Virus record (IMG/VR): IMGVR_UViG_3300044904_000056 | Span: 40,041 to 104,040 of that record | From: a virus | Direction: 5' to 3' (one strand) | DNA: 64,000 nt | In this document: piece by piece, positions 1 to 58,164 of the stretch | Numbering within the stretch: the stretch's first letter is position 1 | Layout of the letters: the number at the start of each line of letters is the position of its first letter | Program-made: the position numbers and the translations under genes | Notes under the pieces: generated by a model | What the model was told of the DNA's origin: nothing | Seen by the model: the letters and a program-made list of their open reading frames with translations, nothing else | The model's database searches: none

Positions 1-624
1 TACAACTTCCTGGAGAGTCCGCTTGTCCTTGACTACAATCTGTTCAAATTTCTCCCTGCTGATAGCGTGTTTCGGCGGATAGGCAATCCGCTTCGCTGTC
101 TTCAGCACCTCTAGGAACTGCTTGTAGTTAGCCTCTGTTTTGTTGCGCAGGTACCACGCTGGGTGGAAGGATATGACATACTGCCAAGGCCCTCCGTTCA
201 CGACGTTCCCGTGAAGCTTTAGGACTCCAGTTTTGTTGAGAACACTGCGGAGAGGAGAGGCTCCAAGGAGGATGACTACTTTCGGACGGAGCGAATGTAT
301 TTCACGAAGCAGATGGGGCCGACAGTGATTAATAGCGTAGGCTGGTAGTTTGTTCCCTGGCGGACGGCACCTAGCCGCATTGGTGAAGCGGCATTTCTTC
401 GGGTCAATCCCAACTTCCTCGATAGCTTCCCGGAGAACAAGGCCTGCTTCTCCACACCAAGGGTAGCCATTCTCATCCTCGTGCTCACCAGGCGCTTCCC
501 CGACAAACAGGAATACCGGCTCCTCACTGCCCTCCCCATTCATCTGTGGGGATTTGCAGCCCTTATAGAGCTGGCAAGGCTTGCAAAATCTATCAGGTTG
601 TCGGAGAACGTTGAGACTAAGCAT
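1..624 (-). CDS. Family 4 uracil-DNA glycosylase, probably N-terminal part of a glycosylase-DNA polymerase fusion (partial)
   Basis: The frame is open from an ATG at 624 to the left edge, giving 208 residues with no stop. Residues 42-50 (GEAPGEHED) and 154-160 (HPAWYLR) match the two active-site motifs of 4Fe-4S uracil-DNA glycosylases. Cys14, Cys17, Cys86 and Cys101 fit the cluster ligands. A family 4 enzyme normally ends near residue 175-200. Here the chain continues with a segment (about 186-208) resembling the entry into a DNA-polymerase-I 3'-5' exonuclease domain, so a fusion to PolA is inferred and lies mostly outside the window. The enzyme would remove uracil from DNA. Its start overlaps the stop of the next gene upstream (TAATG). 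The glycosylase call is solid; the fusion is an inference. Confidence 0.85.
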   Translation of the reverse strand, partial: MLSLNVLRQPDRFCKPCQLYKGCKSPQMNGEGSEEPVFLFVGEAPGEHEDENGYPWCGEAGLVLREAIEEVGIDPKKCRFTNAARCRPPGNKLPAYAINHCRPHLLREIHSLRPKVVILLGASPLRSVLNKTGVLKLHGNVVNGGPWQYVISFHPAWYLRNKTEANYKQFLEVLKTAKRIAYPPKHAISREKFEQIVVKDKRTLQEVV

Positions 625-917
625 TATTTTGACTTAGACTTTGTTCGCTTAACTTCCTGCAAGCCTAGATGGAACCCGATGCAGGTCAACAGCTTGAAAA
701 GTTCAACTTGAGCCTTCGCAGCCTCTTTCTCGTTCTCAGAACCTGCTTCTGTTATTAGAAAGTCCGTAGCCATCATACCAATCTTCGGGTTGAGGCCGAC
801 TTTCCTGAAAACAGAATCCCAGTCCTTTGGCCACCGCTTGTCCTTCCTTGCTGCCTTCAGCAGGACATCGCAGCGATTCCAGAATTGTTTCTGCTTGTAC
901 TCTTCAAAACGGCTCAT
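624..917 (-). CDS. Small hypothetical protein, 97 residues
   Basis: I do not recognise a family. The protein is charged, starts with a basic/aromatic helix-like segment, has a Trp-rich stretch around residues 14-34 and ends in a Lys/Ser-rich tail (TKSKSK). It has no signal peptide or membrane segment. It overlaps the downstream glycosylase start by one base and the upstream gene by an ATGA, so it is probably translated by coupling. The position points to DNA metabolism, but no function can be assigned. Confidence 0.7.
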   Translation of the reverse strand: MSRFEEYKQKQFWNRCDVLLKAARKDKRWPKDWDSVFRKVGLNPKIGMMATDFLITEAGSENEKEAAKAQVELFKLLTCIGFHLGLQEVKRTKSKSK

Positions 918-1303
918 TGCGCTTTCTCCTTCAACTCCTTGATACGGTCCATCGCGTCTTCTAGCTCAACTACGGTTGTATAGCAGAGCATAAGACAGAC
1001 AACCTCCTTTTCCGCAGCAGCCAAACCATTCTGGACACTAAATATCTCTAGCTGCTGTGCCCAGCGATATTTGGGAAGAGGGAGAACTCCATCCCGGATA
1101 GACTCGATAAGCTTCTGAAGATAGTGCATTGCTTTATCGAGGTCCTGTAGTCCGTTTTTCTTACGCCAACGCGTCACATATTTCGTGACCTGCCCCTCGA
1201 AATATCCTAGATGGTTATGGGCTGCTAAGTCCCAGTGCTGAAATTTCGCCTGGTAGTGCTCTCCGCCCACCTGGTAGTCATTCGCCTTCTTGTCAGATTC
1301 CAA
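914..1303 (-). CDS. DUF3310-family phage protein
   Basis: The core GGEHYQ...QHWDL...GYFEGQVTKYVTRW...LQDLDKAMHYLQKLIE is the signature of DUF3310, a family common in tailed phages and sometimes annotated as nucleotide kinase without proof. I place the start at TTG 1303, because GGAGG lies 6 bases upstream and the family match begins directly after it. A longer reading from 1495 would only add residues encoded antiphase to the neighbouring gene. The resulting 129-residue protein has a C-terminal helical extension rich in Glu and Lys. It overlaps the upstream gene by 11 bases and its stop overlaps the next start (ATGA). Confidence 0.8.
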   Translation of the reverse strand: MESDKKANDYQVGGEHYQAKFQHWDLAAHNHLGYFEGQVTKYVTRWRKKNGLQDLDKAMHYLQKLIESIRDGVLPLPKYRWAQQLEIFSVQNGLAAAEKEVVCLMLCYTTVVELEDAMDRIKELKEKAQ

Positions 1304-1667
1304 TTTGTGCCTCCTTGGGAATGTCCTCCAAACGCGCCAGACCAACATCCCAGTGGTCCGCGTGATTCTCTTTAGCCAGACGTTCTGCTTCATTCCGAGC
1401 AGGCGTATGACTGGTAGCCTTGATAAATTTCGTATCCCAATCCCTGCGACCGTTGAAGTAGAGCTTGACTTCATACCAGTCTTCCTGAACAACAATCGGC
1501 AGGATAATCCGGTGCTCTGCCGGCTTCGTCATCACCTTCGGAAAGAAGTACCTCTTGCGAAACTCGTGAGGCTTAGGATGGAATCGCGTTGTCCGCTTCT
1601 CTGGGGCTTTCCTGGCCCGGACCTTCTTTGTCTTCCGTGTTGGTCCTGCCTTTTTCTTTTGCGTCAT
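1293..1667 (-). CDS. Hypothetical basic protein, 124 residues
   Basis: The N-terminal 30 residues are very Lys/Arg-rich (TQKKKAGPTRKTKKVRARK), like a nucleic-acid-binding tail. Residues about 55-110 look like a compact alpha/beta domain. No family is recognised. The ATG at 1667 has GAGG eight bases upstream. The first 95 bases overlap the 3' end of the thymidylate-synthase-like gene in another frame, a longer overlap than elsewhere in the window. One of the two termini may therefore be shorter than annotated. Confidence 0.6.
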   Translation of the reverse strand: MTQKKKAGPTRKTKKVRARKAPEKRTTRFHPKPHEFRKRYFFPKVMTKPAEHRIILPIVVQEDWYEVKLYFNGRRDWDTKFIKATSHTPARNEAERLAKENHADHWDVGLARLEDIPKEAQIGI

Positions 1668-2760
1668 CGAGTAGCCTCACACAGGTGGAGTAGACTTCTT
1701 TCGATATTCCATACGTGCACTGCTCGTAATAGTTCAAAGCCAATTCCATAAACGGGGAGGGAAGGTGCAGAATTTCACTAGCGACCCACTCCGCCCTATA
1801 CTGCCAACCTGGCTCTTTCACCCAGCGGAAAATAGTAAGCATTTGGGGAATGGTTTTTATCCAGTACCCATCTGGAGGGGGAGGCCATGTCGGATTTGGA
1901 AGCTCTCTTGGTTTGTCCGTCTTGAAAGCCCTAATCTTCTCTACTTTGAGGAGGACGTGTTGAAACTCTTCGTCAGTAACTGTAGAGAATCCTGGTACGC
2001 ATTCGGCCTTAACACTTGCTTGATTCATCACCTCTGATTCATCAAAGGCTCTTTCGAGGATATTCCCTAGAGTCGGCTTGTAGAGTTCTTCATAATAGTG
2101 GAGATTTTGAATAATGTACGTCAGCTTCCCTATCTTCGCCCCCAGACAACCCGCTATATAGGCATGAATATGGGAGAACTGAACCGCGTTGTACGGCGCT
2201 CCCCAAATGAGGTCGCAACTCCGCTGCACTACAGTCTGGTCTAGAATCCCGTTTCTCAGCCGTAGATATATGACATTGTTGCACGGGTAGTCATTTGACT
2301 TCAGAAGATTGTCCCGCTCCGGGTCCCAAAGGCTGATAACTGCTTGTCTTGATAGAGGCTCCCGCTTTAGCTTGTCGATGGCAATGCTAATTTGGTCTAC
2401 AGTTAGATATCCTCCAATTGCTGAAGGCCAGCGTCTCATCCGCAGCCCGTAGGCCCCATTGAAATCCTGCTGATTACCATCCGCAAACTTCCTCATGTTC
2501 TTGTTAAAGTAACATATCCACTCGACATTCCCGCTGCCTGAGAGAATCCAGATTACTTCAGCAAGGGCGAAGAATGGATTGAAGTTGCGTCCAGGAATCA
2601 CCATCCAGCAATATCCTGGCAGCTCATAGTTCAAACAGACAGGTTCTTCTAGCTCTAAGCAAGGACCATGGCGGGTGGGAATCTCCTTCCCATGATTTGC
2701 TATTTCGCGGACCAGAGCGAAGTAGAAGTCGCCAAGACCACGGCCTGAATAAGTTTTCAC
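1573..2760 (-). CDS. Thymidylate synthase homologue, probable dUMP 5-hydroxymethylase
   Basis: The fold is recognisable from the catalytic Cys160 (YPC), the phosphate-binding QRSCD at 179-183 and Asn191 (GAPYN), which in thymidylate synthases reads the uracil ring. The retained Asn points to dUMP, not dCMP, as substrate. The segment matching the Trp-containing loop of dTMP-forming enzymes (E. coli Trp80) reads NMRKFADG at 88-95 and lacks that Trp, as in hydroxymethylases. The likely product is 5-hydroxymethyl-dUMP. The GTG start at 2760 is preceded by GAGGAGG and by the GCGTTCTAT element. The C-terminal 35 residues are charged and overlap the next gene. A plain dTMP synthase cannot be excluded. 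Confidence 0.8.
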   Translation of the reverse strand: MKTYSGRGLGDFYFALVREIANHGKEIPTRHGPCLELEEPVCLNYELPGYCWMVIPGRNFNPFFALAEVIWILSGSGNVEWICYFNKNMRKFADGNQQDFNGAYGLRMRRWPSAIGGYLTVDQISIAIDKLKREPLSRQAVISLWDPERDNLLKSNDYPCNNVIYLRLRNGILDQTVVQRSCDLIWGAPYNAVQFSHIHAYIAGCLGAKIGKLTYIIQNLHYYEELYKPTLGNILERAFDESEVMNQASVKAECVPGFSTVTDEEFQHVLLKVEKIRAFKTDKPRELPNPTWPPPPDGYWIKTIPQMLTIFRWVKEPGWQYRAEWVASEILHLPSPFMELALNYYEQCTYGISKEVYSTCVRLLDDAKEKGRTNTEDKEGPGQESPREADNAIPS

Positions 2761-2776
2761 AATCGTTCCTCCTCAC

Positions 2777-3646
2777 CTAGATAGAACGCTCCCCTCTAGG
2801 AAAACGTAAGTTGCCTTGGAACCCGTTGTAGAGAGAGCGAGGCCTGCCTTCTCCCAGACGTACCCGCTCATACTTGTCCCACTCACAAAGTGCATTCTGC
2901 AAATCCTGCGCATGTATGTCCGGCATTCCTGCTTGAAAAATTTTCGGGCTGATTTTGTCGTAGAGTTCGTCTAGGCATTCCTTCCAATCCGCTTCCTTCC
3001 ACTTAGCCCTCTTATCCCGCCCTATTACACGATTCAACCCTCGTTTGCTCCCAGGGCCAGAGATAGCCCAAGTTGACCAATCCTTTGCGTGCCGAAGCGT
3101 AGCATACTTCACATCAGCAATGACCTGCCCTGTCATAAAGCTTCCCATATCTTTCTGGTCGTGCAGCCTGTCGTAGAATTCCGCAAGCGTATCGCCATCT
3201 CTCGGGCGGATTTCTTTTCTTGCTCCCCACATCGGTGTCAGGACTTGCTTGGCTAGGTATCGGGCTTTCGATTGATGATCTGGACCTGCGTGAATCATAT
3301 ATGCTCCGGTGAAGACTTTCTCGCCGTCTTTCTTTCGCTGCTCCAATACTCTGATGAACTCGTCTGGGTGCCAAGGAACAGGATAACCTAGCTCATCTAG
3401 GGTCTCCGGCCAATTGACAAAACGTGAAACCGTCATAGCGAACCAGAGGTCCTTATCTTCCGCGTGAGGCTCCCGCCAATGCTCCCGTACCCAAATCGTG
3501 ACCGTGTCTAATTCCCGGAACACGTTGCAGAACCGATAGCGCTGAAGTATTGGGTCCCGTGTCCATGGTCGAGGCTTGCCAGCTTGCTTCCGCTTGTAGA
3601 TTGCGTGGCGTTCAAGGATGAAGCGAAGGAGAGGATTGATGTTCAT
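2777..3646 (-). CDS. Alpha-glutamyl/putrescinyl-thymine pyrophosphorylase superfamily protein
   Basis: The N-terminal pattern (ERHAIYKRK near 12-20, PWT at 27-29, DPIL, then YRFCNVFRELD at 37-47) matches the helical, glycosylase-like domain family found in thymine-hypermodifying phages. That family is annotated as aGPT-pyrophosphorylase clade 3 or as the helical domain of 5-hmdU DNA kinases. In characterised systems the enzyme displaces pyrophosphate from 5-(pyrophosphoryloxymethyl)uracil in DNA with an amine or amino acid. The 289-residue length fits a stand-alone protein. It sits directly before the TS homologue, ends 16 bases before its start, and its start overlaps the stop of the zinc-ribbon gene (TGATG). 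The C-terminus carries an RFPR tetrapeptide at 281-284. The precise clade is uncertain. Confidence 0.75.
   Translation of the reverse strand: MNINPLLRFILERHAIYKRKQAGKPRPWTRDPILQRYRFCNVFRELDTVTIWVREHWREPHAEDKDLWFAMTVSRFVNWPETLDELGYPVPWHPDEFIRVLEQRKKDGEKVFTGAYMIHAGPDHQSKARYLAKQVLTPMWGARKEIRPRDGDTLAEFYDRLHDQKDMGSFMTGQVIADVKYATLRHAKDWSTWAISGPGSKRGLNRVIGRDKRAKWKEADWKECLDELYDKISPKIFQAGMPDIHAQDLQNALCEWDKYERVRLGEGRPRSLYNGFQGNLRFPRGERSI
2781..2789 (-). promoter_or_regulatory. GCGTTCTAT element, copy 1
   Basis: GCGTTCTAT on the minus strand ends 20 bases before the GTG start of the thymidylate-synthase homologue, with AGGTGAGGAGG between. It overlaps the last codons of the upstream pyrophosphorylase-family gene. 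Spacing equals that at 11600 and 21416. Confidence 0.5.
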
Positions 3647-3999
3647 CAGTTGCCTCTCCTTTGATTTTGATACAGACGTAGCCGTTCAGCCATATTCATC
3701 AGCTCGTTCGCCAGCTCTTCATCGCGGTAGGTGTAGTAACACTGAGTGTTGGACTTCTCTGCCATAGCTTCAAGATTGCTGATGATTTCGTCCAGGTCAA
3801 CTCGGGGGCCACGGTGCTTCTTGCCGGCTTTCTTCTTATCTCGGCAGGATTTGCAGCGTTTTGGCATTTGGAATTCGGGATTTGTTGCCTGAAGACTTTT
3901 GTAGAAGCTTATCTCGCTCTCGTACATCCCCCAGTCCTCGTGGCAGTCTACGCATTGCCCCATCGAAACAAATGCTCCTCGATCTTTATCATCCCCCAT
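3646..3999 (-). CDS. Zinc-ribbon protein (zf-trcl-like)
   Basis: Cys16-x2-Cys19 and Cys49-x2-Cys52 bracket an aromatic/acidic segment (YESEISFYKSL). This layout and the following CRDKKK resemble the small 'probable zinc-ribbon' family (Pfam zf-trcl). The 65-residue C-terminal extension is helical with an Asp/Glu-rich stretch and no recognised domain. It probably binds a nucleic acid or a protein partner. The gene is coupled to the pyrophosphorylase-family gene by a one-base overlap. Confidence 0.7.
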   Translation of the reverse strand: MGDDKDRGAFVSMGQCVDCHEDWGMYESEISFYKSLQATNPEFQMPKRCKSCRDKKKAGKKHRGPRVDLDEIISNLEAMAEKSNTQCYYTYRDEELANELMNMAERLRLYQNQRRGN

Positions 4000-4358
4000 T
4001 TTCTCTTCCTTTCCGCTTTCTCCACTCTACCCAACGTCTCTTCGTAGCTTTACCAATTTTTAGAAGAGCCTGCTTAGTATGCTTGTATCCTTTGCTATTT
4101 TGATTCCCAAATCCGAAATGTTTGCCCGCAGCATTTTTATTCCCTAATTTGGAGAGGCTCATCTTTTTACGGCTCATAGGAGAAAGTTTTCGCCCTAAAC
4201 AGTATTGATTTCCTGTATGAAGTTTGATTAGTCTGCGGCGGTGTTCTGCAGACAATTTCTTTCCCTTCCTGTTATGATTCCCCGCCCCAATCTTATTACC
4301 CATCAATCTTATTACCCATCATCCTTCTTCTCATCTTCTTTCGAGTAGTCGCAGACAT
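3989..4358 (-). pseudogene. NUMOD3-repeat homing-endonuclease remnant, frameshifted by a 16-bp duplication
   Basis: From ATG 4303 the frame encodes 104 residues that are almost entirely NUMOD3-type DNA-binding repeats (GNQYCLGRKLS, GNKNAAGKHF and similar). No HNH, GIY-YIG or EDxHD nuclease domain is present. A second short frame from ATG 4358 (20 codons, stop at 4296-4298) encodes the first half of another NUMOD3 motif (TTRKKMRRRMMGNKI). The two frames are separated only by an exact 16-bp tandem duplication at 4288-4319. Removing one copy would join them. The element lies between the kinase and the zinc-ribbon gene and overlaps the latter by 11 bases. It is best read as a decayed mobile gene, though the 104-residue product could still be made. 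Confidence 0.7.
4288..4319. repeat. Exact 16-bp tandem duplication
   Basis: Two identical 16-base units (4288-4303 and 4304-4319, CAATCTTATTACCCAT on the plus strand) lie head to tail. Sixteen is not a multiple of three, so the duplication shifts the NUMOD3 frame and creates an early stop. Confidence 0.95.
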
Positions 4359-4359
4359 T

Positions 4360-4983
4360 TTAATACCCAAGGAACCATCCCCACAACCAAGCTAGAATAG
4401 TTTGTAATCCATCCTGATAAGGGATAACTCTGACATCTGCCCCTACTTCTCTGAGTCTCTTCTCACTACCTAATACGGCCTTGTATTTTGGATAGAGGGA
4501 TTTGTCCGGGTCAACTGGCCGAGGGTCCTTCCGCTGAATCCTGCGCTTTACCATCCGCTGAAGGCACTTCTCTAAGGGGGTATCCATAAAGCCAAATATC
4601 CAATGCGTATGCGGTAGGCTTCTTGCCAGGTCAATCCAACGCTGGGTCAGGGTAGCAGCCAGCGCTCCCTCGAAAACAACATTCCCCCGCCTGGAAAGGT
4701 CTGTGATTGCCTTGGAAGCGTAATCGGCACGGGTGCTGCCCCTGTAATAGCTTTCGTCAATCGCGTCATAGCCGCCCGTTGTTATCCGGTAAGGCCCAAG
4801 CAGGGCTGTCTTCGTAGGCCCTGTATCGAGGACGTAGGCGAGCACCTTTCCATTCCCAGGGTTAATCAGAGGCGTATTGGAAAAGCTCTCTAGAAGGGAT
4901 TTTGCTAGGGTTGTCTTGCCACTGGCATTCGTGCCCCTGATGTTGATGACGATATGCTTCAGCCGAGGAAATCGTTCCGTCAT
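4360..4983 (-). CDS. P-loop kinase, probable 5-hydroxymethyl-dU DNA kinase
   Basis: The Walker A motif GTNASGKTT is at residues 17-25. The rest of the 207 residues has the compact layout of the kinases that phosphorylate 5-hydroxymethyluracil in DNA of thymine-hypermodified phages. An acidic FEGA segment follows the mid region and basic lid residues (KRRIQRKDPRP) lie near 148-158. The assignment rests mainly on context: TS homologue and pyrophosphorylase-family genes lie within 1.6 kb. It could be a generic deoxynucleoside-type kinase. An RFPR tetrapeptide occupies residues 4-7, before the first beta strand. The start overlaps the phosphatase-fold gene by ATGA. Confidence 0.7.
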   Translation of the reverse strand: MTERFPRLKHIVINIRGTNASGKTTLAKSLLESFSNTPLINPGNGKVLAYVLDTGPTKTALLGPYRITTGGYDAIDESYYRGSTRADYASKAITDLSRRGNVVFEGALAATLTQRWIDLARSLPHTHWIFGFMDTPLEKCLQRMVKRRIQRKDPRPVDPDKSLYPKYKAVLGSEKRLREVGADVRVIPYQDGLQTILAWLWGWFLGY

Positions 4984-5423
4984 TTCCCTTTCTCCAGCTT
5001 CGACAGATTCAAAACACCCGACTCGATAACCCGCATTGCCTTCATATAGTCGTCACCCTTGAGAAAGGGCAGGTCCGGTATGCGGATAACGGGAGGCTCC
5101 GCATACGCACCAAGAGGCGAGAACTTCCGCCGATGAGCTGGAAACTTTTTCAACAGCTGCTTGTAATGTACTGGGCTCATATAGATGATGCGGTCAGCCC
5201 ATTCGACCATCTTCTGAGTCACAGGCTTTGACCTTTCGTCCTCCTCTAGATAGTACGCCTGGTTGAGGCTATAGAGAGCCTCCCGGACTTTCTTCGCAAT
5301 GGTTCCCTGGTAGGGGCCTTTTTGCAGCCCTGCCGATTCAACGTTCATCCCGAGGTATCGCCCGATAGCCGCTGCGACCTGAGATCGGGAACGGTTGTTG
5401 GTGCAGATAAAGAGGATACGCAC
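4980..5423 (-). CDS. Low-molecular-weight protein tyrosine phosphatase-fold protein
   Basis: The protein begins with a beta strand and the CX5R loop CTNNRSR (Cys7 to Arg13). IPDLPF places a general-acid Asp at 117. This is the arrangement of low-molecular-weight phosphatases and the related arsenate reductases. At 147 residues it has normal family length. The GTG start at 5423 is preceded by AAGGGAG. The gene is coupled to the kinase by a 4-base overlap, so it may remove phosphate from a nucleotide intermediate or from a host protein. The substrate cannot be told from the sequence. Confidence 0.75.
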   Translation of the reverse strand: MRILFICTNNRSRSQVAAAIGRYLGMNVESAGLQKGPYQGTIAKKVREALYSLNQAYYLEEDERSKPVTQKMVEWADRIIYMSPVHYKQLLKKFPAHRRKFSPLGAYAEPPVIRIPDLPFLKGDDYMKAMRVIESGVLNLSKLEKGK

Positions 5424-5570
5424 TGTGCTTTCGACTCCCTTCTAGGCCCGACTGGTTTTAGGCCAGCCTATTGTTGGTAGCGGACCCAACTAGCCAGTGG
5501 CAGGGTGCTAGCAGAGTTCGTTTACGTGGGGATATAGCTAAACTGGTGTAAAGGCTAGTTTTGAGCCCTG

Positions 5571-6182
5571 CTAGGGGCCTATCCGGGGGAAGCGTAGGGG
5601 GCCAGTCCTCCTGGCCCTGACTATTAGCTCAACAGTAGCCTTCAGCTTCTCCGCTGGGTGAAAGTAGAAGAACTTAGCTTGGGCCGAGAAGATAGGTATA
5701 TGCCGCCACTTCCTAGCCGGAGGCTTCGCATAGCTCACGACCTCCATCCCCGCTAGCATCTCGTTCACACGTTCCCGGTGTTTTTGGACAAGGGCGTAGG
5801 GCTGTTCTAGGTAGAACCAGCAGCCCGGATATTGCAGCCACTGTCGGATATTCCAATGGTCCTGGGTATGCTCCGTCTGCTGAAGGGGAGCCACCCCTAG
5901 AGGCAGAATCACCGTAGAGTCCGGAGGGGGCCAAGTGTGGACTGGCTTGAGCATCTCTTTCCAATCGCAATCTCCTCCAATATAGTTGTATCCTTGCCAG
6001 TAAGCACCTACAGCATCGGCGTAAGTCTCCGCATCCCGCAGGGAGTTCTTCTTCACAGGGACCATAGTCAGAATGGTAACCTGCTTGCCTTCCTGAATCC
6101 ACTGCTCGATATGAGCCCCTAGCGAAAGGAAGGCATCATCACTGTGAGGCTCTACGATAACCAGGCGGTCATTTATGGGCAC
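5571..6182 (-). CDS. PIG-L/LmbE-family N-deacetylase
   Basis: PHSDDAFLSLG near residues 12-22 is the metal-binding PHxDD signature of the family that deacetylates N-acetylglucosamine conjugates. His124-type ligands are likely in the EHTQDHWNIR segment, the usual second His motif. I choose GTG 6182 (203 residues) because GGAGG lies seven bases before it. A longer reading would overlap the methyltransferase gene by 50 bases. The C-terminus carries RFPR four residues before the end. Next to hypermodification genes, it may deacetylate a sugar added to DNA or to the virion. Confidence 0.8.
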   Translation of the reverse strand: MPINDRLVIVEPHSDDAFLSLGAHIEQWIQEGKQVTILTMVPVKKNSLRDAETYADAVGAYWQGYNYIGGDCDWKEMLKPVHTWPPPDSTVILPLGVAPLQQTEHTQDHWNIRQWLQYPGCWFYLEQPYALVQKHRERVNEMLAGMEVVSYAKPPARKWRHIPIFSAQAKFFYFHPAEKLKATVELIVRARRTGPLRFPRIGP

Positions 6183-6774
6183 GTTTCGGCCTCCGGAAGA
6201 CGCTGAGATGCCGCCCATACCAGTTGGAAGTAATTCTTTCGTCAGCTAATATCGCTTCGCACAACTCCTTGGTGACCTTCTTTTCAAAGGTGAATCCGGC
6301 AAGCACAAATAGTTGCCGCCAATAGCCTTTAGGCTTGCAGTTCACGTGGTACCGGCCCCATTCAGAAGAGTCGATGGACAGGAGCACCCATTTTGAGGAG
6401 AGCCGTTTCACCGTATCCACTAAGACTTTCTCAGAGGACTCCGGGATGTGCTCGAATACATCCCACGAGGTTACCAGGTCAAATTTTTTGTCCAAATGGA
6501 AGGACTTTGATAGGTCGTGGGCTATGTATTTCGCTCCTTCCGCGAATCTGCTGTTGAACTCAGAACCATCCACCCCATAAGCCCTTACTCCTAGCTCTGA
6601 CAGCCGATTCACAAACGACATCGTACCACAACCCAGGTCAATGCAACGCTTGGGGTGAAATCTGTTGAAGATGAGCTCTGCTAGATATTTCGAGGACACG
6701 TGGGGTCCTTTTGTGGACCTGGTGCGATTTTTGAACCACTTCAGTGGATAGAGTTCACTTAGCTTTTCTTCCAT
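6169..6774 (-). CDS. Class I SAM-dependent methyltransferase
   Basis: CIDLGCGTMSFV is the SAM-binding motif I. An acidic residue ends the next strand (YGVDGS), and FDLVTSWDVFEHI is the typical motif of small-molecule methyltransferases of the Methyltransf_11/23 type. At 201 residues it is a stand-alone catalytic domain. No target-recognition region typical of DNA cytosine or adenine methylases is visible. It overlaps the deacetylase by 14 bases and the upstream HNH gene by 16. A sugar or base-adduct substrate is plausible. Confidence 0.75.
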   Translation of the reverse strand: MEEKLSELYPLKWFKNRTRSTKGPHVSSKYLAELIFNRFHPKRCIDLGCGTMSFVNRLSELGVRAYGVDGSEFNSRFAEGAKYIAHDLSKSFHLDKKFDLVTSWDVFEHIPESSEKVLVDTVKRLSSKWVLLSIDSSEWGRYHVNCKPKGYWRQLFVLAGFTFEKKVTKELCEAILADERITSNWYGRHLSVFRRPKRAHK

Positions 6775-7268
6775 AGTCGTGGGAACCTCATCGGGAAATT
6801 AGGTCTTGCAAATTCTCCGAAAAATTCTTTGGCAGCAGTATCATAAGCCTTCGCTGCGGCTATCGGATTGTCGAAGGAACCTAGATGAATAACTTTCCAA
6901 TATACACAAATCTGCGCATACCATTTCCTAGCACCTTTGTGCCAAGAGACACCTTTGAATCCTGATTTGTTATTTGAATGCTTTCCTTGGTTAGCCAGAT
7001 TCTGCGAGTTAGAAGCATCTCTCAAATTATCTTTTTGACAATCTAGCCCATTTCCATTCTTATGGTCTATCCCTTTGCGCCCTAATATAAAATTGTGTAG
7101 AAGAAAATTAGGAACTCCCATTTGTCCGTGAGCTGCGTACGACTTACCCTTAGAGCCAGATGTATAGTGCCATATGCCCTCAGCTGTTACACGTTCATAA
7201 TCTTCGTCATCAACAAGTGCATAGGCTCTTATCTTTCCTTTTCGATTGCGAAGCGGAATTTTCTTCAT
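6759..7268 (-). CDS. HNH homing endonuclease with AP2 DNA-binding domain
   Basis: The order is an N-terminal beta-rich region, an HNH core (LHNFILGRKGIDHKNGNGLD, about 57-76, then DNLRDAS) and an AP2-like domain (SGFKGVSWHKGARKWYAQI, then HLGSFDNPIAAAKAYD, about 102-150). This is a common free-standing phage homing endonuclease. It interrupts a run of modification and glycosylation genes. The last residues are MRFPRLWKKS, so it shares the RFPR tail with its neighbours. It overlaps both flanking genes. Confidence 0.9.
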   Translation of the reverse strand: MKKIPLRNRKGKIRAYALVDDEDYERVTAEGIWHYTSGSKGKSYAAHGQMGVPNFLLHNFILGRKGIDHKNGNGLDCQKDNLRDASNSQNLANQGKHSNNKSGFKGVSWHKGARKWYAQICVYWKVIHLGSFDNPIAAAKAYDTAAKEFFGEFARPNFPMRFPRLWKKS

Positions 7269-8386
7269 CGTCTAAACTCGTCAAAAACTTCATCATATAG
7301 TTTGTAGGCTGAATGATTGTCGTTTACATATTCCCTCGCTTCCTTTCTAGGATACCCTCTCACATCATATTTCATAATCGCTTCAGGATACTTGGCCAGG
7401 TCAGAGATAGGCAGTACCAAATTATCTGGGATGGCACTTCGGAGAAGGTTTTTGTGCACTACAGGGACGCAGCCATAATATAGAGCCTCAACAATTGTGT
7501 TGTTGTAGGAACCTCTCCGGTAGGCTTTATATTTTGCCCTATGCCCTTGAAAGTCAGCCATGAATCCCGCTCTGGAAAGGATTTTTGCCCGTCTCTCTAC
7601 TGAGACCCAACCATAGTAGGTTGCTAAGCCCTTCCCTGAGTATTGTGGGGCAAAAAAATCCTTACCAACGACCTTCTTCCAGCCATTTTCTTTTCTCATG
7701 TTATAGTATTCAATGCCGGAATTGTAGAGCTTTACTTCGTAACCTTTGTCGAGGAGTCGAGGTACCCCATCAAAGAAGGGTTTGATTCCTTTCACATTCT
7801 TCCATTGAGGCATCCATACAACGCGATTCTCAATGCGTTCCTTTTCGGAAGGCTTTCCGATAGGAATAAAAGGAATATAAACGGTCTGTACCGGATAGCC
7901 TGCTTTGACGAGAGGCTCTCCATAAGCAGGCTGAGTCACGAGAGTCTTCTCGCATAGCGGCAAAACTTGTTCCCCAAACTCCTTGTATGTATCCCAATAA
8001 GCATCCGAGATATAGCCGACAATCGGTATATCCAGTTTATTCAGCCTCTTTAACAAGGCCATAAAGACAGGACTGCCCCCATAAGCTTTTGTCGGATGCG
8101 GACAGAGGAAGCTCAACATCACTACATCGTAGGATGTTAGAAAGGCTAAAGTCTCTCGATAGTTTTCCCTATGGTGTGGAGCGTAGCCATCAATAGTGAT
8201 GTAGGAATCCCCACCACGGATTAATTTTCTTTCAGGCAACAAGAGGGGATGTTTTGTTTTCTGGTTGGCGCTAACGAGGACGTGAAAGGTGTCACCTTTC
8301 TGGTCTGCTACCTTCCGATAGGTTCTCAGGCGAGTGTTGATGCCCCCTACGGAAGAGGTAGGCCAATGCAGGACTGCAATTTTCAC
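7265..8386 (-). CDS. Glycosyltransferase (GT-B, group 1 type)
   Basis: An N-terminal Rossmann-like start (MKIAVLHWPTSSVGGIN) and a C-terminal half with NNTIVEALYYGCVPVV, the E-x7-E-like nucleotide-sugar signature of GT4/GT1 enzymes, support the call. I start at GTG 8386 (373 residues), which overlaps the upstream stop as GTGA and fits the conserved first strand. A longer reading from 8518 runs antiphase through the preceding gene. It would transfer a sugar from a nucleotide donor, either to modified DNA bases or to a virion or host glycan. No membrane anchor is seen. Confidence 0.8.
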   Translation of the reverse strand: MKIAVLHWPTSSVGGINTRLRTYRKVADQKGDTFHVLVSANQKTKHPLLLPERKLIRGGDSYITIDGYAPHHRENYRETLAFLTSYDVVMLSFLCPHPTKAYGGSPVFMALLKRLNKLDIPIVGYISDAYWDTYKEFGEQVLPLCEKTLVTQPAYGEPLVKAGYPVQTVYIPFIPIGKPSEKERIENRVVWMPQWKNVKGIKPFFDGVPRLLDKGYEVKLYNSGIEYYNMRKENGWKKVVGKDFFAPQYSGKGLATYYGWVSVERRAKILSRAGFMADFQGHRAKYKAYRRGSYNNTIVEALYYGCVPVVHKNLLRSAIPDNLVLPISDLAKYPEAIMKYDVRGYPRKEAREYVNDNHSAYKLYDEVFDEFRR

Positions 8387-9003
8387 GATGCTTTCCTGAA
8401 GAGGAGATAGATGCTCCTCTTGTTTGCTGATTGAGCTACTAGCCGATAGCCCAGCCCTAGGAAGCAAGTCTCCATCTCTAGAGCCGGCAGGCGTCTCGAA
8501 TCGGTCAGGACTACCCAAGCGGCTTTGTCAAAGACGGCTTCTGTGACAGTTCTGTATTGCCTCTTGGCTTTACTGAGAGTCCAATCGGGGAAGTCTGCCA
8601 CTACAAGGTCTGGATGCTGAAAGAGACTATCTATCACTACCGATTGAGCCCCACCAAGAGGCTCTATGATAGAGGTAGACCAGCTATGGTGCCGCCCTGC
8701 TTCCAGGATGTACGCATAGCAGCGCCTCTCATTTGAGTAGACTTCGTGCTTGTTGGGATTGAATAGCAGCTGAAGGATTTGAGCGTTGACTCCCACCCCA
8801 CCAAACAGTTCAACGATGTTCTTTGGTTGCGGAGCAATTTGGCTGACGAGCTCAAAGAATCGCCTAGCTTCAGCCTCGGTCTCCCCAGGTTCGTAACGGA
8901 GCCGCCAGAATATGCCCCGCTTCGATGGCAGAGTGTTCTTCGCAACTCGGGGGAGTTTAGAGGGGAGCATGATGCGTGCTCCGGCCACAAGGATTGATTG
9001 CAT
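8383..9003 (-). CDS. Rossmann-fold methyltransferase-like protein
   Basis: IVELFGGVGVNAQIL (about 63-77) resembles SAM-binding motif I and YSNERRCYAYIL the following strand. PDLVVADFPDWTL sits where DNA and RNA methylases keep a DPPY-like motif, but the sequence is DFPD, so catalysis on an exocyclic amine is doubtful. The ATG at 9003 has GAGGAGA upstream. It is coupled to the glycosyltransferase by GTGA. It may be a nucleic-acid methyltransferase or a related SAM protein. Confidence 0.55.
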   Translation of the reverse strand: MQSILVAGARIMLPSKLPRVAKNTLPSKRGIFWRLRYEPGETEAEARRFFELVSQIAPQPKNIVELFGGVGVNAQILQLLFNPNKHEVYSNERRCYAYILEAGRHHSWSTSIIEPLGGAQSVVIDSLFQHPDLVVADFPDWTLSKAKRQYRTVTEAVFDKAAWVVLTDSRRLPALEMETCFLGLGYRLVAQSANKRSIYLLFRKAS

Positions 9004-9023
9004 CTTGTTTCTCCTCTACAACA

Positions 9024-9061
9024 AAAATGATGGCGGGAGGCTCCGAAGAGCAACTCCCGCC
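9024..9061 (-). terminator. Rho-independent terminator
   Basis: On the minus strand an 8-bp stem (GGCGGGAG/CTCCCGCC, 9032-9039 with 9054-9061) is followed by ATCATTTTTG. It lies directly after the Asp-Ala-Ser-repeat gene and would end its transcript. Confidence 0.8.
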
Positions 9062-9085
9062 TATCAGCACTTTACCAGGACTGTA

Positions 9086-10264
9086 CTACGCTGCTGCCTT
9101 GCAAGCCTTCCCGAAGATTTTGAGCTTGGCCCCGAGATGAGACACGTCACCCGTGAACAGAAACTTCCCGGCAATCTTCGCCTCTTGCCAGTCCGACTTC
9201 TTGAGCCCCAGCTTCTCCAGCTTGGTCTTCGGATAGAGATAGACGCGAAAGCCTTCGTCCTTGTCCGGGCGGATGAATCGTGCCCAAGGCCCACCAGGAT
9301 ACTTGACATAAAGCTCCCCGCTGCTCTTGGTCTCAACCTCCGCACCCAGCGCCTCTGCCTTGCTAGACACTAGGATGTCCTTCACCGCACTGGAGAGCTT
9401 ACCACTCTTGGAAGACTTCTGCTTCTTTTCCTTGTGATGGTGATGCTTGTGTTCCTTTTTGGACACTTCCTTGTCCTCCTCTTTCTCGTGCTTCTTTTCT
9501 TCCCTGGGATGGTGATGCTTATGACCCTTCTCCTTCTTTCTCTTGTCTCCCTCCTCTTCCCTATTAGCTTTCAGAACTGCGATACAATTCTTGGACTCAA
9601 CGCAACGCTGGCACTCTGGCACATCCGGGTCGGGGTATTTCCCGAAGCAATCTTCAATTCCGGAGGGAATCGGTATGGACGGTGCCCGGGGTTTATACGT
9701 TGCCGGGTCAATCTGTACGAGGGGGGAGCCTTTCGACTCCCCCCTCTCGCTGCTGTCGTCCGAGGCATCCTCAGAGCTATCATCCTTCTTTTCTGAAGAA
9801 TCGTCCTTCTCTTTCCCGTGGTGCTTCTTGCTACCCTTCCTGCCCTTCGGAGGCTCTGGCTCCTCAGAGCTGTCGTCCTTCTTGTCGGAGGCATCAGAGG
9901 CGTCACTAGCATCGCTCTTGTCCGATGCGTCGCTAGCATCCGAGGCATCACTGGCATCTGAAGCATCAGAGGCGTCAGAAGCGTCACTGGCGTCAGAAGC
10001 TTCAGAGGAGCTATCGTCCTTCTTGTCGGATGCGTCGGAAGCATCCGATGCGTCGCTAGCGTCCGAAGAATCTGGAGCTTCAGAACTGTCGTCTGGCTCC
10101 TTCTTCTTCGTTGAGGACTTCTTGGGAGACTTCTTTGAGGACTTTGGAGTTTCTTCCTCAGAGCTGTCGTCAGACTTGTCCGGCTCCTCTTCCGAGGAAT
10201 CGTCAGCAGCCTTCCCTGGTTTTGCCTTGTGCTTTTTCTTCTTGTCTACTTTCTTTTCGGCCAT
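9086..10264 (-). CDS. Asp-Ala-Ser repeat protein with Cys4 motif and C-terminal folded domain
   Basis: No known family is recognised for the whole 392-residue protein. Residues 1-60 are Lys/Asp/Ser-rich. Residues 66-130 are mostly tandem Asp-Ala-Ser triplets broken by KKDDSS, and more DDSSE blocks follow to 175. Cys206, Cys218, Cys221 and Cys227 form a zinc-type motif (CFGKYPDPDVPEC...). Two His/Lys clusters (248-252, 272-276) follow, and residues about 290-392 look like a compact alpha/beta domain. The start ATG has GGAGG seven bases upstream and abuts the sigma-like gene's stop. The acidic serine-rich region resembles phosphorylated or DNA-mimicking disordered proteins, but that role is conjecture. 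Confidence 0.75.
   Translation of the reverse strand: MAEKKVDKKKKHKAKPGKAADDSSEEEPDKSDDSSEEETPKSSKKSPKKSSTKKKEPDDSSEAPDSSDASDASDASDASDKKDDSSSEASDASDASDASDASDASDASDASDASDKSDASDASDASDKKDDSSEEPEPPKGRKGSKKHHGKEKDDSSEKKDDSSEDASDDSSERGESKGSPLVQIDPATYKPRAPSIPIPSGIEDCFGKYPDPDVPECQRCVESKNCIAVLKANREEEGDKRKKEKGHKHHHPREEKKHEKEEDKEVSKKEHKHHHHKEKKQKSSKSGKLSSAVKDILVSSKAEALGAEVETKSSGELYVKYPGGPWARFIRPDKDEGFRVYLYPKTKLEKLGLKKSDWQEAKIAGKFLFTGDVSHLGAKLKIFGKACKAAA
9875..10069. repeat. 9-bp tandem codon repeats encoding (Asp-Ala-Ser)n
   Basis: About twenty near-consecutive 9-base units encode DAS triplets. Third positions vary (GAT/GAC, GCA/GCG/GCT/GCC, TCN/AGC), so the repeat has been kept at protein level and is not a recent slippage product. 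Confidence 0.9.
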
Positions 10265-39825: not shown

Positions 39826-40554
39826 TCAACGCTGCGGCGTCACAGGGGGGAGCACAAACCCAGTGAAGGAAGTAGCAGGTTTGTAAGCTCTGCCTTGACT
39901 TTTGTAGTAGTCATCCCTTGCATTCAATCCGCTCTTCTCAAGCTTTACAGCGCGCTTATCGAAAGCCTCCGCCATCTGGGACGGACTGAAACTCTGATCC
40001 CCTGCTGAAATATCGTAACGGGTAGCAAATCTCTGCGCGAGAGCCTCTGCTGCCATTGAAGCAGCAAGCTGGGTAATCGCATCAAATAGCCCGTCAGGAA
40101 TATCAGCTGGTGCTGTTCCCCCAGTTGGCAATTGGAAGCTACCTGAAATGGTAGAGGCCCCAACATAGTAGAGAGTAAAGCTAATCTTGTTCGCAGCAGA
40201 GCAGAGATAGCGGTCCCATTCAAGGTCGTCAAACCAGGTGTAGTTGAAATCCACCGCAAGCGAATCTTCCTCAAGAGGAGCAGTCGCAAATATGATCTGT
40301 CCATTCTTGGGGTTTGGTACGGTGTAGCCTACGTTGAAAGTCAGAGGGGAGCCATCAACGTAAGCCTTCGGAAAGATTGTCGGGCTGGACGCAGGATAGA
40401 TTACCAGCCGCCCACCAACAATGCTGAATATCGTGTTCGTGCCGTCCTGGTTGCCCTGGAGGTCTGTAAACTGAGAGACAAATTTGGAATCGTACCAATC
40501 GTCAATCAGCCTCCGGGCCGCATCGATTCCATTTTGCTGGTTGTATTGTGGCAC
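39826..40554 (-). CDS. Head-tail connector-like protein, 242 residues
   Basis: It has an N-terminal helix (NGIDAARRLIDDWYDSKFVSQ), a central beta barrel-like region and a helical segment (FDAITQLAASMAAEALAQRF) similar to adaptor proteins. It is first of the joining genes after the membrane protein. No specific family is recognised. Confidence 0.5.
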   Translation of the reverse strand: MPQYNQQNGIDAARRLIDDWYDSKFVSQFTDLQGNQDGTNTIFSIVGGRLVIYPASSPTIFPKAYVDGSPLTFNVGYTVPNPKNGQIIFATAPLEEDSLAVDFNYTWFDDLEWDRYLCSAANKISFTLYYVGASTISGSFQLPTGGTAPADIPDGLFDAITQLAASMAAEALAQRFATRYDISAGDQSFSPSQMAEAFDKRAVKLEKSGLNARDDYYKSQGRAYKPATSFTGFVLPPVTPQR

Positions 40555-56479: not shown

Positions 56480-57430
56480 AGAATCACTCCCTCCAGACGG
56501 ATTGATGTTGCTGTACTGCTCTTCGTTGACTTGACCCGGTCCCTTACCTGATATTGAGCTGGCCGCATGCAAGACCTTCGATGCTTCAAAGGCTGCTTGT
56601 TTCAGTTCATCAGGGGAATCGGAGTTGTAAGCCGAAACGAGAGAGTCAGCAACTTCCTTTGCCTTCTCGGGACTCAGGATACCAGCTTCTCTCGTTCGCC
56701 TTTTCATTTCACCTAAAGTTACCTTCCGCCCTCTGCGGCTTTCAAGCATAGCATCAAACTTGCCACGAGCCGCAGGTTCAGTTACCACATCAGCGGAATC
56801 AACCCGCTGAAACTCTTCGACATAGTTGACTTGCTCACCGCCCATGTTCGCAGGGCGAGTCTTGCCAATAGCGTTAATCGAGATGCCGAACAGGCCCTTC
56901 GCGGTAGGCTCATTGAGAATCGTATCAATCATATCAGTGAGCCACTTCGCTGAAGGGAAGAAATGAAGCTTGCCCCTAAGCCTTACTTTGCCTGTTGTTG
57001 GGTTGGCGTCCGTAAAGCAGTCGCTGTACCAGCCAACCAACGCACGCATTGTCCGTTCTGGGAGGGTCTTCTCGGAGATAGCATCCGGGTGATCACAGAA
57101 AGCCTTGGCCCCGTTGAATACTTGGACACCTGCTTTGAGGGCTTCGGCGCTGTAAAGATTGCGATCTTTACTATTTCCTAACCCCTCCTCTATAATAGTA
57201 ACTAAGTAAACTCTTCCCTTTTGTTGAGTACCACTTTTCTGCTTTTGGGCGTCCTCTTCACCTTTTTCCGTAAAGGCATCCTGGTGAAAAGATTCTCGAA
57301 TTCGAGAAGCCAAAAGTTTCCTCTTCTTTTTCTTTCTACCAGAAGCGACAAGATGTTTCCCCGTAGACAGGGGAAATTTTTGAACTCCTGCCCGTTGCAA
57401 CTGCCCCGTAGATGAAGAGGAATTGCTCAC
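55208..57430 (-). CDS. Prohead protease fused to scaffold protein
   Basis: Residues about 70-230 form the protease: NRNLYSAEALKAG-type start, the catalytic His in AFCDHPDA, and the Ser in GLFGISINAIG, with EEFQRVDSADVVTEPA following. The remaining 500 residues are scaffold-like, with very acidic low-complexity blocks (EDEGLEGLEDEDEG, 400-440) and a C-terminal coiled-coil/helical part (about 590-690). An internal ATG at 56479 with GGAGGGA eight bases upstream could make a separate scaffold. The stop of the homing endonuclease overlaps the start. Confidence 0.85.
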   Translation of the reverse strand: MSNSSSSTGQLQRAGVQKFPLSTGKHLVASGRKKKKRKLLASRIRESFHQDAFTEKGEEDAQKQKSGTQQKGRVYLVTIIEEGLGNSKDRNLYSAEALKAGVQVFNGAKAFCDHPDAISEKTLPERTMRALVGWYSDCFTDANPTTGKVRLRGKLHFFPSAKWLTDMIDTILNEPTAKGLFGISINAIGKTRPANMGGEQVNYVEEFQRVDSADVVTEPAARGKFDAMLESRRGRKVTLGEMKRRTREAGILSPEKAKEVADSLVSAYNSDSPDELKQAAFEASKVLHAASSISGKGPGQVNEEQYSNINPSGGSDSMNKQKVRASSGSGGLRFRKKKALRAAAGKGADNEDLGEPEPSDIPDELEEADVEDEETRSDLGDQTEFGGGGKHRKVKASRGSRESLEDEGLEGLEDEDEGLEDEGMEDEDEDEDGMGAMPPGGGPSGPAAAVPPTPGSSRSVPASAAEADDSSEDEGMDGDDSEEDLSESLEALEDEDEHDMMRPGNVAESGRNRRHRSRGREADGSSQGPQVKKASFAGGLGHSGHSALPKGADPDRGYEDSDEDFGTEDDSTSGVGKSYKIKTSRFARNRRARKFAKPIVREANRRIEKLEGFIARLRESNRAKDRKIVRYKGIMRFNESVKSANQLTSLAVEKEILTLGAARTLRESLYGLNRKEQVHEIKMAARLLESATEGAIARLSESVDGAGARGGVVSWRPTGAENSELLDGLASDGIPVKEDE
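56709..56722 (-). promoter_or_regulatory. GTAAMTTTAGGTGA leader motif, copy 3 (inside a gene)
   Basis: GTAACTTTAGGTGA followed by AATGAAA lies within the protease/scaffold coding sequence, at the end of the protease domain. The same extended 20-base context recurs at 59339, so it may be a recombination relic or an internal initiation signal. Confidence 0.35.
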
Positions 57431-58164
57431 GCAGCCTTCCTAATGAGGGGGAATACAACTTTGCAAGTTTCGCTGATCCTCTGGCGATGCTCTTTTGAGA
57501 GGTGTCTCCCTTTCAAGGCTTTGCTGATTTTGAGACGGGTTTCTTTTGAGGGAACATAGCCTAAGAGATTCTGATTAGGCCGCCCATACATTCGACTCCG
57601 TTCCTGAGGGGTCAATTTCGACAAGAACCTGCTATGGGACTTCCGCATCTTCTGCTTAGCTTCTTTAGTCCTCTTCAGCCCATAATGGGGGCTATCCTCC
57701 CCCACCCAATCTCTCACCCGCTCCCTCATCAACCTGCTTAGTTTTTTCCGGGCTGCTTTAGACATATTTGATGCGTAGGAATTCCCCCGATGTATTTCTC
57801 TCAACCTTCGGAGACCGTCTTTTGTCATCACGTGGGGCTTTCTCATCTTCTCTAGAACAGCCTCGGAAGGATTTGCGAGTCCATCCCCACCTTCTGTAAG
57901 ATTGTAGCCAAATCGGGGGTCAGTAGTGTTGTAGATTCGGATATACAACTTTTCCCGGTCATTCAATTCAGATTCGGAATCAGATTCGTACAAAATGCAG
58001 CATTCAAAATTCCCAGGACCATATTTCTTGATGGCCCTTTTCAAGTAAAGAGTAGAGTTATACCCTGCCATATGTTCCCGCAGGCGAACAGACAAAAGCC
58101 TTACCGTCTTGCCAACATAAAATTTTCCGTTGGTAATGTTCCGAATTAGGTAGATGCTTCCCAT
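57427..58164 (-). CDS. GIY-YIG homing endonuclease with NUMOD3 repeats
   Basis: SIYLIRNITNGKFYVGKT, the Arg in SVRLREH and the catalytic Glu in ELNDREKLYIRIY mark the GIY-YIG domain (1-90). NUMOD3-like repeats fill the rest (AVLEKMRKP, KTRLKISKALKGRH and similar). It is inserted directly upstream of the protease gene, with stop and start overlapping. It is paralogous to the enzyme at 44238. Confidence 0.9.
   Translation of the reverse strand: MGSIYLIRNITNGKFYVGKTVRLLSVRLREHMAGYNSTLYLKRAIKKYGPGNFECCILYESDSESELNDREKLYIRIYNTTDPRFGYNLTEGGDGLANPSEAVLEKMRKPHVMTKDGLRRLREIHRGNSYASNMSKAARKKLSRLMRERVRDWVGEDSPHYGLKRTKEAKQKMRKSHSRFLSKLTPQERSRMYGRPNQNLLGYVPSKETRLKISKALKGRHLSKEHRQRISETCKVVFPLIRKAA

Follow-up and report, generated by a model that had tools for sequence, protein, structure and literature searches.

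The locus at approximately 1.57-8.39 kb of the window (the 64,000-nucleotide stretch of viral DNA analyzed here, positions 40,041 to 104,040 of the 104-kb record IMGVR_UViG_3300044904_000056) is, on balance, best read as a sugar-type cluster for thymine hypermodification, and part of the thymine in the phage DNA is probably replaced by a sugar-bearing form, predicted to carry an amino sugar. A preliminary description of this DNA had proposed a gene set for thymine hypermodification, and that proposal held, as all of the genes it named are present on the minus strand and include a predicted dUMP hydroxymethylase and a 5-hmdU DNA kinase. However, the span it gave (1573-5423) stops too early, since genes for a PIG-L-type deacetylase, a methyltransferase and a glycosyltransferase (GT) lie upstream at 5571-8386, and it did not recognize the open reading frame at 3989-4306 as a homing-endonuclease fragment. 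The GT-B glycosyltransferase and the putative PIG-L-type deacetylase outside that span are the likely replacement for the ADDT step of known pathways. The enzyme families, the active-site type of the TS-family protein and the operon linkage are supported by sequence and structure prediction. The features of the locus are as follows.

1573..2760, minus strand: TS-family protein, predicted dUMP hydroxymethylase (PF00303, phrog_5131, active-site residues)
2777..3646, minus strand: HMUDK_hel (aGPT-Pplase clade 1), predicted 5-hmdU-DNA handling subunit (PF18723, AF2 model)
3646..3999, minus strand: small treble-clef zinc protein (PF13451, 4.5e-6)
3989..4306, minus strand: NUMOD3 homing-endonuclease fragment, inserted, outside the pathway (PF07460, 2.9e-5)
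4360..4983, minus strand: P-loop 5-hmdU DNA kinase (PF18748, M6-type homology, Walker A)
4980..5423, minus strand: LMW-type CX5R phosphatase (PF01451 (LMWPc), 3.8e-11)
5571..6218, minus strand: PIG-L/LmbE-type zinc deacetylase, predicted sugar de-N-acetylase (PF02585 below cut-off, motifs, operon linkage)
6169..6774, minus strand: SAM-dependent methyltransferase, between the GT and PIG-L genes (PF13489, 3.7e-11)
6759..7268, minus strand: HNH and AP2 homing endonuclease, between the GT and methyltransferase genes, outside the pathway (PF00847, 6e-7; PF13392, 2.8e-4)
7265..8386, minus strand: GT-B glycosyltransferase, predicted 5-hmdU-DNA glycosyltransferase, GTG start at 8386 (L096 identity, AF2/Foldseek)

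The phosphatase and kinase genes share an ATGA overlap, the zinc protein and HMUDK_hel genes share a TGATG overlap at the HMUDK_hel start, and a Shine-Dalgarno sequence (AGGAGG) precedes the TS gene, which suggests that these genes are co-translated. A 147-bp gap and the homing-endonuclease insertions separate the GT and PIG-L genes from the kinase-HMUDK_hel-TS block, and this counts against the sugar reading. Three open reading frames were rejected as parts of the pathway: those at 3989-4306 and 6759-7268 because they encode homing endonucleases, and the UDG at 1-624, considered as a base-editing partner, because it makes up the N-terminal domain of a UDG-PolA fusion and belongs to the replication context. 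The fusion is an 888-amino-acid open frame in L004 and is present in other HMUDK_hel phages as well. Neither the zinc protein nor the methyltransferase, a possible tailoring enzyme, had a homologue among the related loci fetched for comparison. Promoter and terminator scans gave nothing that could be placed, with promoter hits at chance level, and an Rfam search of positions 1-10000 was empty.

Glycosyltransferase and deacetylase

The glycosyltransferase is 57% identical to its counterpart in contig L096, and the best PDB match of its AF2 model (pLDDT 79) was T4 alpha-glucosyltransferase (AGT; Foldseek E 3e-13), followed by PimA and BshA. T4 AGT acts on 5-hydroxymethyl bases in DNA, and BshA is a UDP-GlcNAc:malate enzyme. 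The agreement with AGT is moderate (TM 0.61-0.65), which counts against the sugar reading, and other GT-B enzymes match too. Transfer of a sugar to a hydroxymethylated base in DNA is predicted for this protein, and the prediction is supported by the genetic linkage of the GT with PIG-L, HMUDK_hel and TS genes elsewhere. The PIG-L-type protein scored below the PF02585 cut-off (20.2 vs 28.2 bits), another point against that reading, whereas its L096 orthologue scored above it (2e-6), and the HxDD and downstream His metal motif was kept in 5 of 5 copies. When the family profile was searched against the PDB, it matched PIG-L-fold deacetylases, with Dbv21/teicoplanin N-acyl-GlcN pseudoaglycone deacetylases the best (9e-5). 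A tblastn search of 50,697 phage records found nothing similar to either protein, so the support comes from metagenomic contigs only; a scan of genome contigs for the GT also found none.

Scans for the GT and for PIG-L, unbiased in that HMUDK_hel was not used as a query, covered 2.9 million viral contigs. A compact operon of overlapping genes in the order GT, PIG-L, HMUDK_hel, TS and HD was found in five divergent contigs (L096, L097, L098, L100 and L104), in which no PF18748 kinase or PF18724 ADDT was detectable. The TS, Nmad5, HD and PolA genes of L096 are M6-like, and its GT-PIG-L pair lies ahead of HMUDK_hel, at the position that ADDT, PLP, rSAM and kinase genes take in M6. PIG-L was also found with a TAGT-type GT, HMUDK_hel and TS in L102. 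GT/PIG-L pairs without TS or HMUDK_hel occur on contigs of large phages (L094, L106 and L107), which suggests that the pair may serve other glycans and counts against the sugar reading. As a separate observation, L097 carries an APS-kinase-like gene and a weakly supported sulfotransferase-like gene, which might even hint at an N-sulfated sugar on DNA.

The similarity of the GT to T4 AGT and BshA, that of the deacetylase to GlcN-pseudoaglycone deacetylases, and the operon linkage together led us to propose glycosylation of 5-hmdU followed by de-N-acetylation. The TS-family enzyme would first make 5-hydroxymethyl-dUMP, which would enter DNA as 5-hmdU. After replication, the GT-B enzyme would put an N-acetylhexosamine-like sugar on the 5-hydroxymethyl group, probably assisted by the DNA-glycosylase-fold HMUDK_hel, and the PIG-L-type enzyme would then strip the N-acetyl group, so that the base would bear a free amine with a positive charge. 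The kinase and the CX5R phosphatase may have been retained from an M6-type route and would phosphorylate or reset 5-hmdU, either at a separate subset of sites or to provide the phosphate that joins the sugar to the base, and the methyltransferase may tailor the product. We infer the donor sugar, the linkage, the acceptor (5-hmdU or 5-phosphomethyl-dU), the order of the steps and the role of the kinase; the presumed purpose would be restriction resistance.

Absence of ADDT and the amino-acid route

It could be argued instead that the kinase and HMUDK_hel produce 5-phosphomethyl-dU as in the M6/PaMx11-type route, that an ADDT outside the record or too diverged to recognize adds an amino acid, and that the GT and PIG-L are unrelated neighbors that modify host or virion glycans. 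ADDT accompanies the kinase in 12 of 14 other kinase loci, and the record has no end repeats and is linear. It may be incomplete, so that an ADDT could lie beyond it, which counts against the sugar reading. The pairs in L094, L106 and L107 are also in line with a glycan role, as is the PIG-L/WecE/GT cluster of phage DLP3, which was discussed by its authors as a possible LPS modification (PMC7326821). However, both Pfam and a wider in-house profile found no ADDT (PF18724) in the 104 kb, which bear terminase, head, tail, helicase and polymerase genes. Elsewhere ADDT and the kinase are only a few kb apart. Several kinase loci that at first seemed to be without ADDT proved, on a Pfam check, to carry diverged copies, which makes the absence here more notable. 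Since five other contigs also have the GT-PIG-L pair in one operon directly with HMUDK_hel and TS, the amino-acid route is considered unlikely. Neither a PALP-type PLP enzyme nor a radical SAM is present in the whole record, in agreement with the preliminary description, which had seen no such partner.

Kinase and phosphatase

The P-loop kinase that had been recognized at 4360-4983 was borne out by a profile search, though barely, with a PF18748 match (3.1e-6) of 27.3 bits against a cut-off of 27. Its best phage matches are the kinase genes that adjoin aGPT-Pplase1 in M6/YuA phages, and its Walker A motif is GTNASGKTT. When viral contigs were scanned with the kinase, no relatives turned up. 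The zinc protein and the CX5R phosphatase were likewise recognized correctly, and the set does differ from those described, as had been claimed. However, the phosphatase is not one of its unique parts, because phage Simon (L092) encodes a homologue immediately upstream of its kinase and, in L012 and L014, the kinase gene is abutted by DSP-type CX5R phosphatases.

Kinase and GT occur together in only one of the 93 HMUDK_hel loci surveyed, the present one, and this also counts against the sugar reading; the Fisher p value for their exclusion (6e-7) has descriptive value only, because the loci are related by descent and were compared in this way after the data had been seen. That kinase, phosphatase, GT and PIG-L are combined at this locus alone would fit a scheme in which the GT puts the sugar on the phosphate of 5-phosphomethyl-dU through a phosphodiester link, the deacetylase frees the amine and the phosphatase clears unused phosphates. 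There is a precedent in SP-15, where a glucuronolactone is phosphodiester-linked to a modified thymine (PMC5977210). We regard this scheme as rather improbable, because no kinase was detectable in the related phages with GT-PIG-L, which would thus glycosylate 5-hmdU directly, and a hydroxyl is the usual acceptor of GT-B enzymes.

HMUDK_hel

The protein at 2777-3646 matched PF18723 HMUDK_hel (3.9e-47, profile positions 7-277 of 281), alone among the related families, with no match to PF18724 (ADDT), and is 40% identical over 94% of its length to gp55 of M6, the 'aGPT-Pplase1' of M6/YuA-type phages. HMUDK_hel is the Pfam family formerly named 'aGPT-Pplase clade 1'. The AF2 model (pLDDT 91.8) is all-alpha with a DNA-glycosylase-like fold, and its top PDB match was the PaMx11 gp46 5-PmdU glycinyltransferase (E 0.036), followed by HhH DNA glycosylases. 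BFVD matches were to phiW-14 (5e-15), an SP10 kinase fusion (6e-10) and ADDTs (1.6e-3). Profile-profile similarity to ADDT is weak (hhalign E 0.012), though the folds are related, and this kinship makes the original label of aGPT superfamily fair. However, clade 1 is not the transferase clade, and its homologue is kinase-fused in an SP10-like phage (Goe26/SP10). This speaks against the suggestion that this protein replaces the pyrophosphate, and with no ADDT found in the record, no gene of the known kind was identified for that third step.

In the preliminary reading no further gene would be needed, with HMUDK_hel itself transferring a host metabolite, either an amine or an amino acid, to the phosphorylated base, as for the alpha-putrescinylthymine of phiW-14. 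The many invariant polar residues of HMUDK_hel, its structural relation to ADDT and DNA glycosylases and the phiW-14 homologue are compatible with this. We nevertheless find it very hard to sustain, given the kinase fusions, the separate ADDT beside HMUDK_hel in kinase phages and the GT-B or TAGT glycosyltransferase near HMUDK_hel in about 60 of the 93 loci, mostly with no kinase detected, which suggests that the protein is not bound to one transfer chemistry. HMUDK_hel is instead predicted to be a subunit that handles 5-hmdU-DNA together with either a kinase or a glycosyltransferase. More tentatively, rather than belonging to the kinase as such, it may be a general 5-hmdU-DNA recognition or base-flipping subunit with exchangeable catalytic partners (kinase and ADDT, GT-B, GT-B and PIG-L, or TAGT), and this phage may join two types to give a charged amino-sugar thymine, possibly phosphate-linked. 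If that is true, such a base would belong to a class not previously observed in DNA.

TS-family enzyme

The TS homologue named earlier is confirmed by PF00303 (E=1.7e-28) and phrog_5131 (4e-63). It retains the catalytic C146, R166, D169, N177 (dUMP), H207 and Y209, while W80 is absent and H147 is replaced by N, a pattern identical to that of the M6, PaMx11, SP10-like and SPO1-like phage enzymes. From these residues it is predicted to be a dUMP hydroxymethylase that makes 5-hydroxymethyl-dUMP. Ordinary thymidylate synthesis beside unrelated phage genes, with no base modification, is highly improbable: many phages carry a TS gene (2,892 matching phage records), but this one is without W80, as in known hydroxymethylases, and sits with HMUDK_hel and a 5-hmdU kinase, families described only in thymine hypermodification.

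Significance and comparison with known systems

The data predict a new viral-DNA chemistry in which thymine would carry a positively charged sugar freed of its N-acetyl group, and six divergent phages bear candidate genes for it; a literature search that did not cover key papers found no earlier description of such a sugar-type cluster. If true, viral DNA would have chemical armour of a novel kind, and such bases would bear on restriction evasion, amine-writing enzymes on DNA and the prediction of phage resistance. The analysis also corrects the 'aGPT-Pplase1' assignment and offers a testable rule: loci with the kinase should have ADDT, those with a glycosyltransferase should have no kinase, and HMUDK_hel should occur in either type.

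The Pseudomonas M6/YuA-type cluster (5-NedU) shares with this locus the dUMP hydroxymethylase, the HMUDK kinase and HMUDK_hel, in the order kinase, HMUDK_hel, TS, with DUF3310 and PolA genes nearby. However, this locus is without ADDT, PALP-PLP, rSAM and Nmad5 and has GT-B, PIG-L, methyltransferase, CX5R phosphatase and zinc protein genes instead. The likeness to DNA glucosylation by T4 AGT lies in the GT-B model and the expected 5-hydroxymethyl pyrimidine in DNA. In contrast to T4, which uses 5-hmC, the route here would be through thymine (5-hmdU) with a PIG-L-type deacetylase acting afterwards, and the GT has no sequence similarity to phage GTs detectable by tblastn. In 2024, Pyle et al. reportedly described phage GT-B enzymes that put diverse sugars on 5-hydroxymethyl pyrimidines, but those 5hmC-glycosylating clusters begin with cytosine methylation and oxidation, whereas this one has TS-made 5-hmdU, a kinase and HMUDK_hel. 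Pelagiphage HTVC023P-type clusters of TS and aG/PT-PPlase1, for which a putative glucosyltransferase was noted in Clade II (PMC9599517), resemble this locus in having TS and HMUDK_hel with a GT nearby; the marine loci examined have no PIG-L and no kinase. The bacillithiol BshA/BshB and teicoplanin-type pairs follow the same logic, in that GlcNAc is transferred first and a PIG-L/LmbE enzyme then removes the N-acetyl group, with structural or profile similarity to both halves of the pair, but the acceptor here is predicted to be a DNA base.

Gene content of the cluster

The window covers positions 40041-104040 of a linear virus record of 104,040 bases that encodes a terminase, major head protein, head protease, tape measure, tail fibre, helicases and PolA. 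Since both virion and replication genes are present, the 104-kb record is no small fragment. The preliminary description proposed that a thymidylate synthase (TS) homologue, an aGPT-pyrophosphorylase-superfamily protein and a P-loop kinase at 1573-5423 form a thymine-hypermodification gene set. All of the claimed genes were found on the minus strand and the gene set is confirmed, but the cluster extends further, to 8386.

Genes of the cluster (window positions; Pfam E-values)
1573-2760, minus: thymidylate synthase, 1.7e-28
2777-3646, minus: HMUDK_hel (PF18723), 3.9e-47
3646-3999, minus: treble-clef zinc protein, 4.5e-6
3989-4306: NUMOD3 fragment (Pfam)
4360-4983, minus: 5-hmdU DNA kinase (PF18748), 3.1e-6
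4980-5423, minus: LMW phosphatase, 3.8e-11
5571-6218, upstream of the phosphatase gene: PIG-L, predicted deacetylase (weak Pfam match)
6169-6774, upstream part: SAM methyltransferase (Pfam)
6759-7268, upstream part: HNH/AP2 homing endonuclease (Pfam)
7265-8518, upstream part: glycosyltransferase (GT) ORF, 417 aa, without clear Pfam match; GTG start at 8386 overlaps the preceding ORF's stop

Homing-endonuclease or HNH-like genes and fragments are scattered over the record (57427-58164, 6759-7268, 3989-4306 and, in another part of it, L002:5056-5802 and L002:17850-18359), and two of them lie within the cluster. Positions 9086-10264 encode a 392-aa protein without family match that has long Ser-Asp/Ala-Ser-Asp repeats and Lys/His-rich stretches. 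Positions 1-624, continuing leftward into L004:1-2665 of the same record, encode a UDG-superfamily domain joined to the N-terminal end of a family A DNA polymerase. Several other HMUDK_hel phages share this fusion, which may protect a phage using 5-hmdU from uracil.

Core enzymes

The TS retains C146, R166, D169, N177, H207 and Y209, lacks W80 and has N in place of H147, a pattern common to M6, PaMx11, SP10-like and SPO1-like enzymes. These residues fit a dUMP hydroxymethylase; loss of W80 lets water reach the intermediate. The Microbacterium phage Carostasia (L091) combines HMUDK_hel, a TAGT-type glycosyltransferase and a TS with Asp at position 177 (dCMP-type) in one cluster, which suggests that HMUDK_hel may work with hydroxymethylcytosine too.

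The three-enzyme set stood, but its third member is HMUDK_hel and not an amino acid:DNA transferase (ADDT, PF18724). The same Pfam models label the M6 proteins gp51 (ADDT), gp52 (PLP, PALP), gp53 (radical SAM), gp54 (kinase), gp55 (HMUDK_hel), gp56 (Nmad5) and gp58 (TS), which makes the 2777-3646 protein a homologue of gp55 ('aGPT-Pplase1' in records; 40% identity). Kinase (35-193) and HMUDK_hel (312-597) are joined in a single 636-aa protein of the SP10-like Bacillus phage Goe26. The predicted structure of the window protein (pLDDT 91.8) matches the SP10 kinase fusion and a phiW-14 protein. Among solved structures, the 5-phosphomethyl-dU glycinyltransferase PaMx11 gp46 ranks first (E 0.036, prob 0.98) and HhH DNA glycosylases come next, so the protein has a DNA-glycosylase-like fold. 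The profile match to ADDTs is weak (hhalign E 0.012); the fold is kin to that of these transferases yet distinct from it.

No ADDT match was found in the 104-kb record, possibly an incomplete genome, using Pfam and a wider profile from seven ADDTs. PALP and radical SAM were likewise not found there, as first described. In other loci ADDT is nearly always a near neighbour of the kinase (M6, PaMx11, Simon, L011, L012, L014, L030-L032, L074, L076, L078); the kinase loci without an ADDT match are L009 and Goe26.

A CX5R phosphatase adjoins the kinase gene in the window phage and Simon (both LMW type) and, in a parallel placement directly upstream, in L014 (8909-9364, dual-specificity DSP family, PF00782) and L012 (8917-9363, homologous to that of L014). 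The occurrence of two phosphatase folds at this site suggests a genuine function alongside the kinase, e.g. resetting 5-phosphomethyl-dU. Upstream genes of L014 also include inositol-1-phosphate synthase and an FkbM methyltransferase.

Predicted sugar enzymes and proposed exchangeable partners

The GT model (pLDDT 79, pTM 0.80) best matches T4 alpha-glucosyltransferase (E 3e-13, HMU-DNA complexes included); next come PimA and the UDP-GlcNAc:malate transferase BshA (3e-10). A PIG-L profile from five homologues, with conserved HxDD and later His motifs, matches teicoplanin/A40926 N-acyl-glucosamine pseudoaglycone deacetylases (9e-5). In the bacillithiol and teicoplanin pathways, a GT adds a sugar that is then de-N-acetylated. 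The best-supported prediction for the product is a sugar-bearing thymine, probably de-N-acetylated. The searchable papers, key primary ones not among them, yielded no account of a PIG-L deacetylase taking part in thymine hypermodification.

Among 93 HMUDK_hel loci, a kinase lay within 7.5 kb in 15 and a GT-B or TAGT glycosyltransferase was present in 60; only the window had both (1/93). HMUDK_hel and TS are accompanied in 27 marine loci by a GT-B gene homologous to the window GT (profile comparison, prob 95.6, E 1e-8), which mostly lies directly between them, and in 21 further loci by TAGT and a radical SAM gene. At L053:10903-12990, and in some 20 marine loci like it, the genes between HMUDK_hel and TS encode TAGT, a radical SAM/SPASM protein and a small zinc ribbon resembling NrdR. 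These loci have no kinase and represent another predicted type of thymine modification. For Clade II pelagiphages, a putative glucosyltransferase beside TS and aG/PT-PPlase1 has been noted (PMC9599517). The glycosyltransferase partners across the surveyed loci suggest that HMUDK_hel is more aptly viewed as a common 5-hmdU-DNA factor whose partners can be exchanged, rather than as a transferase or strictly part of the kinase.

Scans that used the GT or the PIG-L protein as query, not HMUDK_hel, returned few contigs from a set of 2.9 million viral ones. Three (L094, L106, L107) carry the GT-PIG-L pair on a contig without TS; in the large phages L106 (9950-13026; 170 kb contig) and L107 (10001-13033; 117 kb contig) a second GT-B-like gene follows. 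L102 has PIG-L and a TAGT-type GT close to HMUDK_hel and TS. Five contigs (L096, L097, L098, L100, L104) hold GT, PIG-L, HMUDK_hel, TS and HD in this order as a compact, partly overlapping run, with neither PF18748 nor PF18724 detectable in these records. Their GTs share only 32-57% identity with that of the window, so they represent different lineages. Between HMUDK_hel and TS, L097 (2031-3022) has an APS-kinase-like gene (PF01583, 2.7e-12) and, besides, a weak, below-cut-off sulfotransferase match (PF13469, 4.3e-5); a deacetylase and sulfotransferase, if real, would permit an N-sulfated sugar on DNA. In L096 the TS, Nmad5, HD and PolA genes are M6-like, but upstream of HMUDK_hel it has GT and PIG-L whereas M6 has ADDT, PLP, radical SAM and kinase.
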